In this document: one piece after another, positions 14,755-45,761 of the stretch
How positions within the stretch are numbered: position 1 is the first letter of the stretch
How the letters are laid out: each line of letters starts with the position of its first letter
From: Frigoriflavimonas asaccharolytica
GTDB taxonomy: Bacteria; Bacteroidota; Bacteroidia; Flavobacteriales; Weeksellaceae
Direction of reading: 5' to 3'
DNA: 64,000 nucleotides
NCBI RefSeq assembly: GCF_013294015.1
Contig: NZ_JABSNO010000005.1
Span: 62,001-126,000 of the forward strand
Position numbers and translations under genes: made by a program
The notes under the pieces: model-generated
The model's input: the letters and a program-made list of their open reading frames with translations, nothing else
Told to the model about the DNA's origin: nothing
Databases searched by the model: none

Positions 14755-14831
14755 CTTTGCGCCCCGACTTGAGTGGAATTCCTTTTTTTTTCAAAAAAAA
14801 TAATGGGAACGGAAGGCGGAATATGGCGCCC
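14755..14831 (-). repeat. 3'-end interspersed element, copy A (after crtZ)
   Basis: On the minus strand it reads GGGCGCC..TTCCGCCTTCCGTTCCC..T-rich..ACTCAAGTCGGGGCGCAAAG. It lies about 22 nt after the crtZ stop. Copies B, C and D are at 34707, 41501 and 58302. The central hairpin here is short. Confidence 0.8.
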
Positions 14832-38191: not shown

Positions 38192-38199
38192 TATATTTG
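38192..38199 (+). promoter_or_regulatory. -7 element of the trp operon
   Basis: Reads TATATTTG (TAnnTTTG). The expected start near 38206 gives a leader of about 188 nt up to the attenuator. No TTG stands at the right distance upstream. Confidence 0.55.
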
Positions 38200-38266
38200 T
38201 CGCTAGAAAAAAAGAATCAGATAATTTAAAATTCCCATTTCTTTTTTTTTACAATATTTTATACTC

Positions 38267-38323
38267 ATGAATTTATTAACAAACAATACTTGGTGGTGGC
38301 ATTCAAACTTTTATAGAGTCTGA
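38267..38323 (+). CDS. trpL: trp leader peptide with three consecutive Trp codons
   Basis: An 18-residue frame, MNLLTNNTWWWHSNFYRV, begins at ATG 38267 and ends at TGA 38321-38323. Three TGG codons lie in a row at 38291-38299. It is followed by a terminator hairpin and then trpE, the classic design of ribosome-stalling attenuation. When Trp-tRNA is scarce, a ribosome halted at the Trp codons would leave the segment around the stop codon (AGAGTCT, 38315-38321) free to pair with downstream sequence and prevent terminator formation. The peptide has no other known role. Confidence 0.92.
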   Translation: MNLLTNNTWWWHSNFYRV

Positions 38324-38356
38324 ATAAAATCTTGTATGCTGTTTGTAAAAACATAT

Positions 38357-38393
38357 AAAAGACTTTGACGAGACTCGTTGAAGTCTTTTTTTT
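38357..38393 (+). terminator. trp operon attenuator
   Basis: A strong hairpin, AAAAGACTT-(tgacg..cgttg)-AAGTCTTTT, with 9 perfect plus 5 further pairs, ends in a run of T. The left arm region AGACTTT can instead pair with AGAGTCT at 38315-38321, giving an antiterminator. It lies 21 nt before trpE. Confidence 0.92.
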
Positions 38394-38414
38394 ATCCAAA
38401 ATTTAAAAATAATT

Positions 38415-39836
38415 ATGCAATTTAACACTACTATAAATATAAAAACTACCGTAAAATCAGTAATGAGCGATCTTTTCACGCCTATTGGCATTTATCTAAG
38501 ACTTAGGGATAAATACCGAGATACAATTCTGCTAGAAAGTGCTGGAAACCAAAACACAGACAACAATTTTTCTTTTATCGCTATCAACGCAATTGCTGGT
38601 ATAGAAATTAGAAATCATGATGAAGCAGAAGTTAAATTTCCGCTCGATCATCCAAAAAAAATTGCTTTAAAAAATGAAAAATTAAGCGAAATTCTGCGAA
38701 ATTTCTCTAATTGTTTTATTTGTGAAGAACCTTCTAAAGAAATTGGAAAATCTGCGCAAGGTTTTTTTGGGTACACCAGTTATGATGCCATTCCTTTCTT
38801 TGAAAATATTCAATTTAAAGAGCAATCTGAGGAAAATATAATTCCACTTTTGCGCTATCGTTTATATCAATATGTAATTGCTATCAACCATCACAACGAT
38901 GAGATGTTCATCATTGAAAATAGAATTGAAGGTTTAAAATCCAACATTTATGAAATTGAAAACCTTATCAATCAAAAAAACGCACCCATTTTTCCATTTG
39001 AAAAAATAGACAATGAAACTTCTAATCTCGAAGATGAAGAATACCGAGAATTGGTAGAAATTGCGAAGAAACACTGTTTCCGTGGAGATGTTTTTCAAAT
39101 GGTGTTAAGCAGAAGATTTGAACAAAAATTTAATGGAGATGAATTTAATGTTTATCGCGCTTTACGTCATATCAATCCTTCACCTTATTTATTTTATTTC
39201 GATTATGGCGATTATAAATTAATGGGTTCTAGTCCAGAAAGTCAATTGATTATTAAAAACGGAAAAGCCATCATACATCCAATTGCAGGAACTTTTAAAA
39301 GAACGGGCGAAATTCAAAAAGATTTAGAAGCTGCGGAAGAATTGAAAAAAGATGCAAAAGAAAATGCCGAACATACGATGCTTGTAGATTTGGCAAGAAA
39401 CGATTTGAGTATTTGCGGAAAAAACACCACCGTTACAAAACTGAAAGAAGTTCAATTTTTTTCTCACGTCATCCATTTAGTGAGCGAAGTAACTGCAGAT
39501 GTTCAAGAGAATCAAAATCCATATGAGATGATTGCAACCACCTTTCCACAAGGAACTTTAAGTGGCGCACCAAAATACAAAGCAATGCAATTGATAGATG
39601 GTTACGAAAAAACTTCGCGTTCCTATTATGGAGGAAGCATCGGTTTTGTAGGTTTTGATGGAAGTTGCAACCAAGCGATTATGATTCGCACTTTCTTAAG
39701 CAAAAACAACACACTTTATTACCAAGCTGGTGCAGGAATTGTGGCAAAATCTACGGCAGAAAACGAATTGCAAGAAGTAAATAATAAACTGAATGCTTTG
39801 AAAATGGCCATTAAAAAAGCCGAAACAATATATTAA
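38415..39836 (+). CDS. trpE: Anthranilate synthase component I
   Basis: The 473-residue chorismate-binding enzyme converts chorismate and ammonia to anthranilate, together with TrpG. The conserved C-terminal blocks are present: GDVFQMVLSRRF, NPSPYLFYFDYGDYKLMGSSPE, HPIAGTFKRTG, DLARNDLSICG and FPQGTLSGAPKYKAM. It is the first gene after the attenuator. The start at 38415 gives about 20 more N-terminal residues than needed; an ATG at 38463 (MSDLFTPIG) is an alternative. Confidence 0.96.
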   Translation: MQFNTTINIKTTVKSVMSDLFTPIGIYLRLRDKYRDTILLESAGNQNTDNNFSFIAINAIAGIEIRNHDEAEVKFPLDHPKKIALKNEKLSEILRNFSNCFICEEPSKEIGKSAQGFFGYTSYDAIPFFENIQFKEQSEENIIPLLRYRLYQYVIAINHHNDEMFIIENRIEGLKSNIYEIENLINQKNAPIFPFEKIDNETSNLEDEEYRELVEIAKKHCFRGDVFQMVLSRRFEQKFNGDEFNVYRALRHINPSPYLFYFDYGDYKLMGSSPESQLIIKNGKAIIHPIAGTFKRTGEIQKDLEAAEELKKDAKENAEHTMLVDLARNDLSICGKNTTVTKLKEVQFFSHVIHLVSEVTADVQENQNPYEMIATTFPQGTLSGAPKYKAMQLIDGYEKTSRSYYGGSIGFVGFDGSCNQAIMIRTFLSKNNTLYYQAGAGIVAKSTAENELQEVNNKLNALKMAIKKAETIY

Positions 39837-39920
39837 TGTACCAGTATAACAATGTAACAGTGCAGCAATTTGCTCTATTAAATTAATTGGTAAACTGTTC
39901 AACTATTACATTGTTACATT
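39835..39920 (+). repeat. Inverted repeat between trpE and trpG
   Basis: The arms AATGTACCAGTATAACAATG.. (39835-39861) and ..CATTGTTACATT (39894-39920) oppose each other over about 27 positions with some mismatches. The left arm begins in the trpE stop codon. Confidence 0.75.
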
Positions 39921-39933
39921 AAAAAAAAAATTT

Positions 39934-40503
39934 ATGAAAATATTAGTCCTAGATAATTACGATAGCTTCACCTATAATTTAGTTCAAATGATTGAGCAAA
40001 TTTTGGGCGAAAAAGTGGATGTTTTCCGAAATGATCAAATTAGTTTGGAGGAAATTGAAAAGTACGATAAAATAATACTTTCGCCCGGTCCTGGAATTCC
40101 AGAAGAAGCTGGAATTTTAATTGAATTAATTAAAAAATACGCAGCTACAAAATCTATATTAGGTGTTTGCCTTGGTCAACAAGCAATAGCAGAAGCGTTT
40201 GGCGGAAGTTTAATCAATCTTTCCGAAATTTTCCACGGTGTTGCAACCAATGCAAAAGCTACCAAATCCGAAGCTAAACTTCTTCGGAATTTACCCGAAA
40301 ATCTGGAAGTTGGAAGATACCATAGTTGGGCTGTAAATCCGGAAGGTTTTCCCGCAGAACTTGAAATCACTTCAATAGATTCCAGCGGAATGATCATGTC
40401 TTTGCAGCATAAAACTTACGATGTTCATGCAGTTCAATACCATCCAGAAAGTATTTTAACACCGAAGGGAAAGCAGATTATAGAAAATTTTTTACAAGAT
40501 TAA
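39934..40503 (+). CDS. trpG: Anthranilate synthase component II (glutamine amidotransferase)
   Basis: The 189-residue class I glutamine amidotransferase supplies ammonia to TrpE. The catalytic Cys is in GVCLGQQAIAEAFGG, and the His-Glu pair in VQYHPESILT. Other TrpG signatures (DNYDSFTYNLVQ, LSPGPGIPEEAG, GRYHSWAV) are clear. It is separated from trpE by a 97-bp gap occupied by an inverted repeat, and from trpD by only one base. Confidence 0.97.
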   Translation: MKILVLDNYDSFTYNLVQMIEQILGEKVDVFRNDQISLEEIEKYDKIILSPGPGIPEEAGILIELIKKYAATKSILGVCLGQQAIAEAFGGSLINLSEIFHGVATNAKATKSEAKLLRNLPENLEVGRYHSWAVNPEGFPAELEITSIDSSGMIMSLQHKTYDVHAVQYHPESILTPKGKQIIENFLQD

Positions 40504-40504
40504 A

Positions 40505-41491
40505 ATGAAAGAAATATTACAATACTTATTTGATCATCAAACGTTGAGCAAAGCAGAAGCAAAATCAATTTTGTTTGAAATTTCCAAAAATATTTTTAAT
40601 GAAATAGAAGTAACCTCATTCGTTTCTGTATTTCTAATGCGAAGTATTACGCTTCCAGAATTAGAAGGTTTCACCGAAGCTCTCATTCAATTGGCACCAA
40701 AAATAGATCTCGGAACAGACGATTTGGTAGATATTGTGGGAACTGGCGGAGATGGAAAAAACTCTTTCAACATCTCAACTTTAGCAAGTCTAGTTGTTGC
40801 AGGAACAGGTCAGAAAGTGGCTAAACACGGCAATTATGCAGCTTCTGCAATTAGCGGAGCGTCTAATGTACTAGAAAATTTGGGCTATCAGTTCAAAGAA
40901 ACGGAAGAAGATTTGAAAAAAGATTTAGAAAAAGGAAATTTTTGCTATTTGCACGCGCCAATTTTCCACACTTCTTTAAAATCTATTGCACCAATGCGAA
41001 AAAATATAGGTTTAAAGACTTTTTTCAACTTATTGGGACCGCTAATTAATCCTGCGCATCCAAAATACACCATGATTGGCGTTGCAAATCTAGAAATTGC
41101 CAGAATTTATCAATATTTGCTTCAAAAGAAGAAATCTGAGTTTTTGTTGGTGCATTCTTTAGATGGTTACGATGAAATTAGCTTAACAAGCGACACCAAA
41201 ATTATAGACAGACGCGGCGAAAAAATATTTTCTGCAGAAGAATTAATGTTCAAAAATATAGAGCCAGAAACTATATTTGGTGGCGAAAATACCAACGAAG
41301 CAGCAAAAATTTTCAAAAATATTTTGGAAGGTAAAGGTACTTACGAGCAAAACGCTGTAGTTTTAGCAAATGCAGCCATGGCTTTAAAAAATACCAGAAA
41401 ATATGGTGAATATGAAGATTGTTTGATGATCGCAAAAGCAAGTTTGACGGAAGGAAAAGCACTGGAATGTTTGCAAAACATTAGTAATTAA
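40505..41491 (+). CDS. trpD: Anthranilate phosphoribosyltransferase
   Basis: The 328-residue enzyme joins anthranilate and PRPP. The PRPP-binding motif GTGGDGKNSFNIST, KHGNYAASAISGASNVLENLGY, and RKNIGLKTFFNLLGPLINPAHP are all in place. It follows trpG by one base, so translation is probably coupled. A 137-bp gap with a repeat element separates it from trpC. Confidence 0.97.
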   Translation: MKEILQYLFDHQTLSKAEAKSILFEISKNIFNEIEVTSFVSVFLMRSITLPELEGFTEALIQLAPKIDLGTDDLVDIVGTGGDGKNSFNISTLASLVVAGTGQKVAKHGNYAASAISGASNVLENLGYQFKETEEDLKKDLEKGNFCYLHAPIFHTSLKSIAPMRKNIGLKTFFNLLGPLINPAHPKYTMIGVANLEIARIYQYLLQKKKSEFLLVHSLDGYDEISLTSDTKIIDRRGEKIFSAEELMFKNIEPETIFGGENTNEAAKIFKNILEGKGTYEQNAVVLANAAMALKNTRKYGEYEDCLMIAKASLTEGKALECLQNISN

Positions 41492-41500
41492 TTTACTTAT

Positions 41501-41598
41501 GGCGCCAATTCCCGCCCTCCATTCCCGCTTTTTTTATTGCCGACTTCGGCAAGCTCAGTCACCAATTAAAAAGAGCTTCATTCAGGTCGGGGCGCAAA
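41501..41598 (+). repeat. 3'-end interspersed element, copy C (after trpD)
   Basis: Reads GGCGCCAATTCCCGCCCTCCATTCCCGC in pieces, a T-run, GCCGACTTCGGC hairpin, then AGAGC..TTCAGGTCGGGGCGCAAA. It starts nine bases after the trpD stop, inside the trp operon. Confidence 0.85.
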
Positions 41599-41628
41599 CT
41601 CTTTATCAATAAAAGATCATATATAAAA

Positions 41629-42408
41629 ATGAATATTCTAGACAAAATAATTGACAATAAAAAACAAGAAATTTCAAAATTAAAAAAGGAAATTTCTCTA
41701 CAAGAACTCAAAGATTCCGTTTATTTCGAACGAAATACCTTCTCTTTAAAAGAAACTTTGAAATCCAAAACAGGAATTATTGCAGAATTTAAACGCCAAT
41801 CGCCAAGCAAAGGAATCATCAATGAAAAAGCAGACGTTTTGGATGTAGCAAAAGCTTACGAAAAGTTTGGAGCCAGCGCAATTTCCATCTTAACCGATGA
41901 ACAATTTTTTGGTGGAAATTTAGAAGATATCTTAAAAGTAAGAAATGAAATTTCAATTCCCATCTTGAGAAAAGATTTCATGGTAGACGAATACCAATTT
42001 TATGAAGCAAAAGCAAATGGTGCAGATGTAATTTTATTAATAGCAAGTTGCCTTTCCGTTGCACAAGTTGAAGAATTTACAGAACTTTCTCACGAACTTG
42101 GCTTGGAGGTTTTACTAGAAATACATACAGAAGATGAGTTGAATCATTTTAATATAAATGTAGATTTAGTAGGAATTAACAATCGAAATTTGAAAGATTT
42201 TAAGGTAGATTTGCAGCATTCTGTCAATTTAAAAAACCTTCTACCAAAGGAAACTTTAGCTATCGCAGAAAGTGGAATTTATTCTTTAGACGATTTCAAT
42301 TTTTTAAAGGAAAAAGGATTTGACGGCTTTTTAATGGGTGAATATTTTATGAGAAATGAAAAACCAGCTGCCGCTTTTGACGAATTTATTTTAAATATTT
42401 CCAATTAA
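41629..42408 (+). CDS. trpC: Indole-3-glycerol phosphate synthase
   Basis: The 259-residue TIM-barrel enzyme closes the indole ring. Motifs: IIAEFKRQSPSKGIINE, SAISILTDEQFFGG, LRKDFMVDEYQ, GINNRNLKDFKVDL, AIAESGIYSLDD and GFLMGEYFMRNEKP. The length is normal and the enzyme is monofunctional, with trpF as a separate gene 9 nt downstream. Confidence 0.97.
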   Translation: MNILDKIIDNKKQEISKLKKEISLQELKDSVYFERNTFSLKETLKSKTGIIAEFKRQSPSKGIINEKADVLDVAKAYEKFGASAISILTDEQFFGGNLEDILKVRNEISIPILRKDFMVDEYQFYEAKANGADVILLIASCLSVAQVEEFTELSHELGLEVLLEIHTEDELNHFNINVDLVGINNRNLKDFKVDLQHSVNLKNLLPKETLAIAESGIYSLDDFNFLKEKGFDGFLMGEYFMRNEKPAAAFDEFILNISN

Positions 42409-42417
42409 TATATCGCT

Positions 42418-43059
42418 ATGAATTCTATAAAATTAAAAGTATGCGGTCTAACGAAACTCGATCAAATAGAAAAATTAATTGCTATGAAAATCGATTTTTT
42501 AGGCTTTATTTTTTATGAAAAATCACCACGTTATGTTTTGGCTCATTTAAATTTAGAAGAAATTAAATCCATTGAACACAAAGGAAAAGTGGGCGTTTTC
42601 GTGAATGAAAGTATTTCAAAAATATTAGAAATTTCGGAGAAAGCGAGTCTTAATTATATTCAACTTCATGGCGATGAAACCGATGATTTCATTTCAGAAT
42701 TACGAGATGAACTAGATGAAAAAGTTGGAATTATAAAGGTTTTTAGAATCGGAAAAAATGCAGAAGGTTTGACTGATAAAATTAATAATTTAAAATTAGA
42801 TACCGATTTTTATCTTTTTGATACCGATTCAAAATCTTTTGGTGGAACAGGAACATCTTTTGATTGGCAACTTCTGAACGAAGAAAGAATATATAAACCG
42901 TACTTTTTAAGTGGAGGAATTTCCCTAGAAAATGCAGAAAACATTAATAAATTAAATCAAAAACCTTTTGCAATAGACATCAATTCAAAATTTGAAACAG
43001 AACCCGGAAATAAAGATTTAGAAAAAATAAAAGCATTAATCAGCGTTGTTAGAGCTTGA
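42418..43059 (+). CDS. trpF: Phosphoribosylanthranilate isomerase
   Basis: The 213-residue TIM-barrel isomerase carries KVCGLTKLDQIE (catalytic Cys), FVNES, YIQLHGDE, FLFDTDSKSFGGTGTSFDW and LSGGISLENA. The catalytic Cys8 and the Asp in LFDTDS are present. The last residues, SVVRA, and the stop codon are encoded inside a perfect 15-bp palindrome (43042-43074), so the natural C-terminus may have been extended by insertion of a repeat. The enzyme core ends before it. Confidence 0.96.
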   Translation: MNSIKLKVCGLTKLDQIEKLIAMKIDFLGFIFYEKSPRYVLAHLNLEEIKSIEHKGKVGVFVNESISKILEISEKASLNYIQLHGDETDDFISELRDELDEKVGIIKVFRIGKNAEGLTDKINNLKLDTDFYLFDTDSKSFGGTGTSFDWQLLNEERIYKPYFLSGGISLENAENINKLNQKPFAIDINSKFETEPGNKDLEKIKALISVVRA

Positions 43060-43074
43060 AGCTCTAACAACGCT
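43042..43074 (+). repeat. Perfect 15-bp hairpin with the trpF stop codon as loop
   Basis: AGCGTTGTTAGAGCT and AGCTCTAACAACGCT are exact reverse complements. The three unpaired bases are TGA, the trpF stop codon. No U-run follows, so it is not a typical terminator. trpB starts 17 nt further on. Confidence 0.95.
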
Positions 43075-43091
43075 CACTATAAACAAAAATA

Positions 43092-44273
43092 ATGACAACA
43101 TTTAGAAACCCAGACAAAAACGGTTATTATGGAGAATTTGGAGGAGCATTCGTACCAGAAATGTTATATCCAAATGTTGCCGAACTGCAAGAAAAATACA
43201 TCCAAATCATAGAATCTAAAGAATTTCAAATTGAATTTCAAGATTTATTGAAAAACTATGTAGGACGAGCTACCCCACTCTATTTTGCGAAAAATTTGAG
43301 CGAAAAATTTCAAACGCAAGTCTATCTAAAACGAGAAGACCTTAATCATACCGGAGCACATAAAATAAATAATGCTCTCGGACAAGCCTTGCTCGCAAAA
43401 AAATTGGGCAAAAAACGCATCATTGCAGAAACTGGAGCAGGACAACATGGCGTTGCAACCGCTACTGCATGTGCATTACTCGGTTTAGAATGCATCGTTT
43501 ATATGGGTGAAATCGATATCGCAAGACAAGCCCCAAATGTTGGACGCATGAAACTCTTGGGTGCAACAATAATTCCTGCAACTTCGGGCTCTAAAACTTT
43601 GAAAGATGCCGTGAATGAAGCGCTAAGAGATTGGATTAATAATGCTTCTACAACCCATTATATTATAGGAAGTGTGGTTGGTCCACATCCATTTCCAGAT
43701 TTGGTAGCACGTTTTCAAAGCGTAATTTCTGAAGAAATAAAATGGCAATTAAACGAAAAAATTGGTAGAGAAAATCCAGATTATGTAATCGCTTGTGTAG
43801 GAGGTGGAAGCAATGCTGCTGGTACATTTTATCACTTTGTAGATGAAGCAGATGTAAAAATAATTGCTGCAGAAGCTGGCGGTTTTGGCGTAGAATCTGG
43901 AAAATCTGCAGCCACTACCTATTTGGGAACTACCGGTGTTTTGCATGGCAGCAAAAGTCTTGTGATGCAAACAGATGACGGACAAGTGATAGAACCACAT
44001 TCCATTTCCGCAGGTTTAGATTACCCCGGAATTGGGCCTTTTCACGCTAATTTATATACGCAAAAAAGAGCAGAATTTTATAGCATTACAGATGATGAAG
44101 CGCTAAAATCTGCTTTTGAATTCACAAAATTAGAAGGAATAATTCCTGCGCTAGAAACTGCACATGCACTAACAATTTTGGAGAAGAAAACTTTCAAAAA
44201 AGAAGATGTTGTGGTAATTTGCTTGAGCGGAAGAGGAGATAAAGATCTAGAAACCTATTTAAACAATTTCTAA
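43092..44273 (+). CDS. trpB: Tryptophan synthase beta chain
   Basis: The 393-residue PLP enzyme joins indole and serine. The PLP lysine is in [13 protein letters not shown], and [27 protein letters not shown] (phosphate-binding loop) and LSGRGDKD are present. It is the long-established TrpB1 type. It lies directly before trpA (stop followed at once by ATG), as expected for partners of an alpha2-beta2 complex. Confidence 0.98.
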
Positions 44274-45008
44274 ATGAAAAAACTAAACATATACTTCACC
44301 GCTGGAATTCCAGAATTGAATGATGTACCATCAATAATGAGAATTATTCAAAATTCTGGCGCAAAAATGATGGAAATTGGAATGCCCTATTCAGATCCTG
44401 TTGCAGACGGACCAGTAATTCAAGGAGCGCACGAATTGGCATTAAAAAATGGAATGTCTATAGAAAATCTTTTTCAACAATTTGAATCTGTGAAAAATGA
44501 AATAGAAATCCCGGTAATTTTAATGGGCTACATCAATCCTGTTTTAAGCTATGGATTTGAGAAATTTTGCCAAAATTGTGAAAAATCTGGTATTTCTGGT
44601 TTAATAATTCCTGATTTACCACCCATAGAATTTGAAAATAATTATCAGAAAATTTTAGAAAAATACAATCTTAATTTCACCTTTTTGGTAACGCCAGAAA
44701 CATCTGATGAAAGAATAAAATACTTAGATTCCTTAAGTTCCGGGTTTTTGTACGCAGTTTCTAGCTCTTCTACAACTGGAAATGATGCTAAAGAAATAAA
44801 TAACGAAGATTATCTACAAAGATTGGCCAATTTACCCTTAAAAAATCCTGTGATGATCGGTTTTGGAATTAAAAATAAAACGGATTTTGAAAAAGTAACC
44901 GAAAAAGCAGATGGAGGAATTATAGGAACCGCATTTGTGAATATTCTCTTACAAGAACAAGATTGGAAGACAAAATGTGAAGCATTTATTCATAGCATAA
45001 CAGATTGA
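44274..45008 (+). CDS. trpA: Tryptophan synthase alpha chain
   Basis: The 244-residue TIM-barrel subunit cleaves indole-3-glycerol phosphate to indole. The catalytic Glu is in MMEIGMPYSDPVADGPVIQ, the Asp in GLIIPDLPPIEFEN, and the phosphate site in GFGIKNKTDFEK and GGIIGTAFV. Slightly shorter than E. coli TrpA (268) but complete. It abuts trpB and is the last gene of the operon. Confidence 0.97.
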   Translation: MKKLNIYFTAGIPELNDVPSIMRIIQNSGAKMMEIGMPYSDPVADGPVIQGAHELALKNGMSIENLFQQFESVKNEIEIPVILMGYINPVLSYGFEKFCQNCEKSGISGLIIPDLPPIEFENNYQKILEKYNLNFTFLVTPETSDERIKYLDSLSSGFLYAVSSSSTTGNDAKEINNEDYLQRLANLPLKNPVMIGFGIKNKTDFEKVTEKADGGIIGTAFVNILLQEQDWKTKCEAFIHSITD

Positions 45009-45038: not shown

Positions 45039-45761
45039 ATGACCATTATTCAAAATAAAAAACTGCATTTTCAAGATTTAGGTTTGATGAATTATGTGGA
45101 TGCATTCCAATTTCAAGAGGAAAAAATGCAAAGCATCATCACTAAAAAAATTGAAAATAGAGACCGAACAGATGAAATTTACGAAGAAACACCGAATTAT
45201 TTTTTCTTTGTAGAACATCCTCACGTGTATACTTTGGGAAAATCTGGCGATGAAAAAAACATGCTTGCAAATCAAGATTTTTTAGATAAAATAGAAGCAA
45301 CTTTTGTGAAAACCAATCGTGGTGGAGATATTACCTATCATGGTTTTGGGCAAATTGTGGGCTATCCAATCCTAGATTTAGACAATTTCAAAAGCGACAT
45401 TCATTTGTATATGAGAAATCTGGAAGAAGTGATGATTCGTGTTTTGGCAGAATATAATTTAGTAGGAGAAAGAAGCGAAGGCGAAACTGGAGTTTGGCTA
45501 GATGTAGGAAAACCGTATGCCAGAAAGATTTGTGCGATGGGTGTAAAAACTTCGAAATGGGTAACCATGCACGGTTTTGCATTGAATGTGAACACAGATT
45601 TAAAATATTTTGAATACATTATTCCGTGCGGAATAAAAGATAAAACGGTGACATCTTTAGCAAGAGAATTGGAAAGAAAATTTTCTGACGAGGAAGTCGC
45701 AGAAGTGAAATCTAAAATTAAACATCATTTCACAAAGGTTTTTGAAGCGGAGTTTTTGTAA
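45039..45761 (+). CDS. lipB: Octanoyltransferase
   Basis: The 240-residue enzyme moves octanoyl groups from acyl carrier protein to lipoate-dependent enzymes. Motifs: VEHPHVYTLGKSG, NRGGDITYHGFGQIVGYPILDL, ARKICAMGVKTSKWVTMHGFALNV and the catalytic Cys in IIPCGIKDKTVTSL; the lysine in RKICAMG is the partner residue. Length and motifs are normal. It lies 30 nt after trpA but has its own -7 element. Confidence 0.96.
   Translation: MTIIQNKKLHFQDLGLMNYVDAFQFQEEKMQSIITKKIENRDRTDEIYEETPNYFFFVEHPHVYTLGKSGDEKNMLANQDFLDKIEATFVKTNRGGDITYHGFGQIVGYPILDLDNFKSDIHLYMRNLEEVMIRVLAEYNLVGERSEGETGVWLDVGKPYARKICAMGVKTSKWVTMHGFALNVNTDLKYFEYIIPCGIKDKTVTSLARELERKFSDEEVAEVKSKIKHHFTKVFEAEFL

Follow-up and report, generated by a model that had tools for sequence, protein, structure and literature searches.

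The window, by which we mean the whole 64,000-nt stretch of DNA analysed here, carries a trpEGDCFBA operon (38415-45008) preceded by a compact leader region (Table 1). The matches of trpF, like that of trpE, lie below their curated cut-offs, and trpG, trpD, trpC, trpB and trpA each pass one. Among the named genomes, the most similar TrpE is that of Kaistella antarctica (90% identical). A preliminary description of this DNA had reported a promoter element, an 18-codon leader with three TGG codons, and a terminator with a U-run standing in this order before trpE, and we find all of them at or very near the places it gave.

Table 1 Features of the trp leader region and the operon behind it
Feature	Position	Strand	Basis
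-7 promoter box TATATTTG	38192..38199	+	Bacteroidota consensus TAnnTTTG (PMC6847099)
Inferred transcription start, 4-5 nt past the -7 box	38204..38205	+	F. johnsoniae spacing (PMC6847099)
Predicted A/U-rich hairpin at the 5' end of the 5' UTR	38204..38251	+	fold -8.2 kcal/mol, z -2.62
trpL leader ORF MNLLTNNTWWWHSNFYRV, 18 codons and stop TGA	38267..38323	+	Trp-run leader in 165/174 distinct trpE loci
Region 1:2 hairpin, predicted for the ribosome-free leader	38279..38346	+	-15.3 kcal/mol, z -2.16
TGG TGG TGG, adjacent Trp codons (sensor)	38291..38299	+	WWW is the Trp run in 141/165 leaders
Region 2, TAGAGTCT around the leader stop	38314..38321	+	clade covariation
Terminator hairpin (region 3:4)	38357..38389	+	-15.4 kcal/mol, z -4.78; covariation
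U-run of intrinsic terminator	38386..38393	+	sequence
trpE, first gene under putative control	38415..39836	+	TIGR00564 best match, 406 bits, below curated cut-off 517.7
trpG, trpD, trpC, trpF, trpB, trpA in that order	39934..45008	+	profile matches

Anatomy of the leader region

The TAnnTTTG motif is common in the window by itself (127 found vs 106 expected). We call the promoter because K. antarctica has the same sequence, acatttatatatttg, before its leader and because the leaders of other relatives have boxes as well. Both the consensus and the box-to-start spacing seen in Flavobacterium johnsoniae are taken from the promoter data given in PMC6847099. The three adjacent Trp codons lie within TGGTGGTGG, which occurs three times in the window against 0.05 expected, the other two copies being inside long ORFs; as a genome-wide marker of further Trp leaders it proved useless, with 130 matches against 106 for a reversed control. 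No Shine-Dalgarno site was seen before the window leader.

Three hairpins are predicted along this RNA. For the A/U-rich 5' hairpin and for the region 1:2 hairpin, 4 of 200 shuffled sequences each fold as well, and for the terminator stretch none of 200 does. Taken as one piece, 38206-38393 folds at -37 kcal/mol (z -3.38; 1/200 shuffles as good). Region 2 can pair with the terminator left arm, AGACTTTG (38360-38367). As an alternative, GAGTCT (38316-38321) within it can pair with AGACTC (38371-38376) in the apical part of the same hairpin.

Conservation among relatives

We collected trpE loci from relatives (30 best), named genomes (80 best) and a phylum sample (all 56 nearer places and 14 of the 37 outside the class), in which a TrpE match at E 1e-80 was present in 93 of 247 genomes; the sampling is thus skewed toward TrpE relatives of the window. 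Final counts leave out L044, which lies on the contig of L014, and L114, which equals L050. On the basis of position, unrelated ORFs were removed from L009, L030, L058, L115 and L177; if a leader had several in-frame ATGs, one close to a promoter box was preferred. The group labels "window-like" and "Chitinophagaceae" were assigned by us from named neighbours; the window-like set includes one Capnocytophaga, and L023, L024, L027 and L028 of the window's own family (f1) stand outside it.

The preliminary description had made its reading depend on recurrence of the leader frame or the stems in relatives, and a Trp-run leader precedes 165 of 174 distinct trpE loci, with a terminator in 159 of those 165. 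Of the 14 loci sampled outside the class, 13 also show such a leader. Among genomes whose TrpE is similar, the attenuator thus appears to be ancient and to occur widely across the phylum. Outside the Trp run the peptide differs greatly between genera. Nine loci are without a Trp-run leader: contig ends truncate two of these, L046 and L070; in L027 and L162, read by eye, trpE seems to stand behind another trp gene, and the L027 genome has a match to the Rfam family RF01692 about 1.3 kb upstream; L054, L056 and L060 seem by eye to have a single-Trp leader; and a Trp leader was looked for in L063 and L170 and none was found. By the rule used, no terminator was found in 6 of 166 leaders (L082, L085, L086, L102, L118 and L160). 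Two genomes of one genus have tandem Trp attenuators before trpE (L025, at 102-384, and L022), consisting of two WWW leaders, each with its own terminator behind it.

Relation to known leaders

RF01692 (Bacteroid-trp, "Bacteroidete tryptophan peptide leader RNA"), a family that Weinberg et al. 2010 list (PMC2864571), matches 38244-38369 with 35.5 bits against a cut-off of 49. The window leader is most plausibly a diverged relative of this family that scores below threshold. It shares with the model the position before trpE and the Trp codons and can be aligned over the whole model; unlike the window element, the aligned model stops inside the terminator left arm and so is without the loop and the right arm. 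A search of the window's genome gave no RF01692 match at E 0.001. Within the taxonomic family of the window it exceeds its cut-off in 26 of 148 genomes, where 148 counts all genomes, with or without a trp operon. Among 20 leader loci tried, RF01692 passes in 5, including the window-like L004 (49.8 bits; TrpE 82% identical), and misses 15, so the element is wider than current annotation shows. A second sub-threshold match, to the trpB motif RF04312, covers the inner hairpin and the terminator (38298-38396; 32.7 bits, cut-off 59). Elsewhere in the window, a Flavo-1 RNA (RF01705) matches 14756-14827 (+) with 42.4 bits, just over the cut-off of 42.

The Rfam matches also bear on whether the terminator might be governed by a protein or small-molecule sensor (TRAP, trp repressor, T-box or riboswitch) in place of the ribosome. 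No T-box or riboswitch family reaches its gathering threshold in the window, and the conserved element is a run of Trp codons in a short ORF; we saw nothing that speaks for such control and regard it as very improbable. No proteobacterial Trp leader family is among the Rfam matches of the window.

In the E. coli trp attenuator, 1:2, 2:3 and 3:4 pairings alternate and the leader stop codon lies in region 2. The window leader would work in the same manner, resembling it in its Trp-codon run, in the alternatives predicted for it and in the place of the stop codon, but it differs in sequence and promoter type and in having no Shine-Dalgarno site that we could see. Its novelty for Bacteroidota, as implied in the preliminary description, is smaller than it appeared: besides the weak RF01692 match, attenuation in Flavobacterium psychrophilum had already been suggested, in a 2019 paper that places an RF01692 element before the trp operon and draws the E. 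coli parallel (PMC6414381) and in a 2021 transcriptome paper that mentions clues to leader-peptide attenuation before amino-acid operons (PMC9723704). Within the top-ranked open-licence literature, including passages of PMC4833913 and PMC2965389, we found no report of leaderless starts or of loop pairing in Bacteroidota trp leaders.

Initiation of the leader peptide

The preliminary description asked how the leader peptide is initiated; comparison of the loci gives an answer, from which the window, with its predicted 5' UTR, deviates. In 66 of 165 loci the leader ATG follows an exact -7 box at 3-9 nt, a count for which the choice of start favoured promoters, and in 38 more it follows a one-mismatch box at this distance. 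Under neutral start rules the exact box is at this distance in 52/166 (nearest ATG) or 59/166 (5'-most ATG), and in leaders with a single possible ATG in 46/122. Shuffled upstream sequence gives 0.6% for an exact and 10.6% for a one-mismatch box. In the window-like set the box is exactly 4-5 nt before the ATG in 29 of 37 leaders (18 or 24 of 37 under the neutral rules; 15 of 21 leaders with one ATG), which would put the AUG at or almost at the 5' end of the transcript. These distances suggest that in many relatives the leader AUG lies at or near the predicted transcription start, giving leaderless or nearly leaderless leader mRNAs. In family f3, with Flavobacterium-type leaders, the box is 15-20 nt away in 18 of 26 loci and 3-9 nt away in 8.

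The trpE ATGs of the same loci have an exact box at 3-9 nt in 0/165 and a one-mismatch box in 10/165. This comparison bears on an alternative in which the terminator works constitutively or serves the upstream side, the Trp-rich ORF has arisen by chance and trpE is transcribed from a separate promoter downstream of the terminator. A -7-like box can arise by chance, and five exact boxes do lie 15-73 nt before trpE ATGs among the loci; against this stand the absence of the exact motif close to the trpE ATG and the presence of the leader in 165 and of the terminator in 159 of the 174 distinct loci, which make the alternative exceedingly improbable.

In the window itself the exact box is 67 nt from the leader ATG, with a predicted 5' UTR of 62-63 nt, and no box, exact or with one mismatch, occurs within 29 nt of that ATG; by promoter prediction, then, the window leader mRNA is not leaderless. 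A second promoter directly before 38267 that would also make the window leader leaderless is suggested by the window-like loci, of which 18-29 of 37, depending on the start rule, have an exact box 4-5 nt before the leader ATG. We think it unlikely, given the empty 29 nt before the window ATG and the resemblance of the distant exact box to that of K. antarctica.

Several features of the extra upstream sequence deserve mention. In K. antarctica an additional small ORF, MKRWVDLFKNKNHISKRCI, lies before the Trp leader, 5 nt behind the window-like promoter box; the window has TAG 4 nt behind its own box. Extra sequence between box and leader is also present in several window-like loci (e.g. L032 and L081), where a 5' hairpin seems possible by eye, that of the window being the one folded.

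A leaderless start as a general rule for attenuators was considered and is not supported by hisG and ilvD loci. Seven of 11 hisG loci have His-run leaders, and an exact box lies at 3-9 nt in none and at 19-20 nt in three. Among the 11 ilvD loci, of which two are truncated and one yielded no start, five have leaders rich in branched-chain codons, with a box at 8 nt in one. In two genomes (G008 and G010) the box is 5 nt from the Trp leader and 20 and 19 nt, respectively, from the His leader, so that proximity of the box is no general habit of attenuators there. At hisG in the window's own genome we found a terminator and no His-run leader; 7 of the 10 other hisG loci have one. For comparison, 5.5% of F. 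psychrophilum mRNAs are given as leaderless in PMC9723704, and about 3.7% of Bacteroides thetaiotaomicron 5' UTRs as shorter than 10 nt in PMC7366714.

The Sinorhizobium meliloti trpL RNA starts at the ATG of its leader ORF, as described in PMC7298713. Many relatives of the window, with a predicted start at the leader AUG, are like it in this respect; the window belongs to a different phylum and is itself predicted to be leadered. S. meliloti also offers a precedent for a terminated leader RNA or peptide that acts in trans (rnTrpL and peTrpL; PMC7298713). A terminated leader RNA is expected here too, but the peptide outside the Trp run varies much between genera, and an additional trans action seems unlikely.

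Proposed antiterminator pairing

The preliminary description had proposed AGAGTCT, around the leader stop, and AGACTTT, in the terminator left arm, as an antiterminator. The complementarity exists, but taken from the window alone the helix (38315-38321 with 38360-38366) is at chance level (p 0.36 when tested on the whole hairpin, p 0.15 on the left arm). Across all loci, this single-sequence helix test reaches p<=0.05 in 58 of 156; an initial swap test by RNAduplex energies was weak (either pairing at p<=0.05 in 59/156), and a contiguous-helix permutation test was used instead. It is comparison within the clade that supports the proposal. In an alignment of 25 window-like loci, 88.1% of cells in the region 2:left-arm pairing are paired, and its covariation score is matched by none of 500 shuffles and by none of the slid versions, for a structure that was drawn up with these same sequences in view. 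Two of five measures fall within the shuffles, namely pairs changed on both sides (235/500) and further pair types (341/500). The terminator in the same alignment is 97.8% paired, with a score matched by 0/500 shuffles. Against the 10 clade pairs the window has three broken and a fourth gapped. Alignments A2 and A3 include 25 of the 34 and 26 of the 32 loci listed for them.

When partners were swapped between 22 window-like loci, region 2 preferred the left arm of its own locus (z 3.9, p 1e-4), with nothing for the apex and z -0.5 for the right arm, the negative control. The left arm is likewise preferred in 33 Chitinophagaceae loci (z 6.8). In the 42 loci that remain, Flavobacterium and Polaribacter among them, z is 8.5 for the apical loop and its flanks and 3.9 for the left arm, and after limitation to hairpins below 75% identity (21 loci) the values are z 5.5 and z 4.4. 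The right-arm control is significant in no set, its lowest p being 0.059 (7 window-like loci below 75% identity). In an alignment of 26 mostly Flavobacterium-type loci, a loop pairing of GTCGTGA with TCACGAC is 90.9% paired, and its covariation score is matched by 0/500 shuffles. These results suggest that the apical loop of the terminator is a further pairing partner of the stop-codon region in loci outside the window's clade and the Chitinophagaceae. Counted from the end of the leader stop codon, the best-pairing segments fall between about 35 nt upstream and 12 nt downstream, the same limits within which they were searched for; their position at the leader stop would suit masking by a ribosome finishing the leader.

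Predicted folding with a ribosome on the leader

Partner swapping for the region 1:2 hairpin gave p 0.13 in the window clade (28 loci), p 0.36 in Chitinophagaceae and z 8.1 in the other loci, and so supports this hairpin in the last group alone. Folding the window RNA with the leader blocked at the Trp codons was a check proposed in the preliminary description. With a ribosome at the first Trp codon the best full-length structure is an antiterminator (-21.1 kcal/mol), and with one at the third it is the terminator. With a ribosome at the stop the best structure is the terminator (-18.4 kcal/mol). The left-arm pairing appears in window folds with RNA to 38372, and the apical GAGUCU:AGACUC pairing with RNA to 38375 and 38380.

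With a stalled ribosome and RNA reaching 4 nt beyond the loop, at least 5 region 2:hairpin pairs are expected in 36/36 window-like, 37/38 Chitinophagaceae and 80/82 other loci, as against 23/36, 11/38 and 27/82 with no ribosome. Shuffling region 2 lowers the mean number of pairs from 11.4 to 7.4, from 10.0 to 6.1 and from 12.2 to 5.8, respectively. For the window, this intermediate has 14.3 expected pairs both with the stalled ribosome and with none, so the predicted protection of region 2 by the 1:2 hairpin is not visible there; the full transcript has 11.5 pairs stalled vs 0.0 with no ribosome. Once the full hairpin is present, region 2 keeps at least 5 pairs in only 1/36 window-like, 4/38 Chitinophagaceae and 2/82 other loci. 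The terminator is thus dominant in nearly all loci when the hairpin is complete, and antitermination must be kinetic. The E. coli trp switch is generally held to be kinetic as well.

Proposed function

We conclude with high confidence that the window holds a ribosome-mediated transcription attenuator of trpEGDCFBA, a reading put forward in the preliminary description and upheld by the elements, their conservation and the clade covariation. What is observed is the anatomy, its conservation and, in the clade, covariation within the terminator and between region 2 and the left arm; the start site, the ribosome positions and the regulatory outcome are inferred. Transcription would start about 4-5 nt past 38199, and a ribosome would translate the 18-codon leader with no visible Shine-Dalgarno site. 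When Trp-tRNA is ample, the ribosome would reach the TGA (38321-38323) and cover region 2, and the terminator hairpin with its U-run would end transcription. When Trp-tRNA is scarce, it would stall at the three Trp codons and cover region 1 (~38301-38311); the freed region 2 could then pair with the left arm, with the apical part, or with both, before the right arm is made, and RNA polymerase would continue into trpE once this antiterminator had formed. If the leader is not translated, the 1:2 hairpin and the terminator would form.

On a wider view, we lean, with little more than even confidence, toward an ancestral attenuator spread across the Bacteroidota whose transcripts often begin with the leader AUG or a few bases ahead of it, allowing initiation free of a Shine-Dalgarno site. 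It would come in two antiterminator geometries, one using the left arm (the window's clade and Chitinophagaceae) and one in which the stop-codon segment captures the apical loop (Flavobacterium-like and several other lineages), and the 5' UTR with its terminal hairpin would have been gained secondarily in the window lineage. The initiation mode and the two geometries are predictions from sequence comparison, and it is they that go beyond the known kind. The locus offers a sequence-defined, testable trp attenuator from a phylum in which most mRNAs have no Shine-Dalgarno site, and it suggests that many such leaders are translated from the very 5' end. If true, the loop pairing would explain the conservation of the terminator loop in Flavobacterium-type leaders.

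At the far end of the operon, a lipB-like gene (lipoyl(octanoyl) transferase; 45039-45761, +) follows 30 nt behind trpA. It may be co-transcribed with the trp operon and hence share the control of the attenuator.
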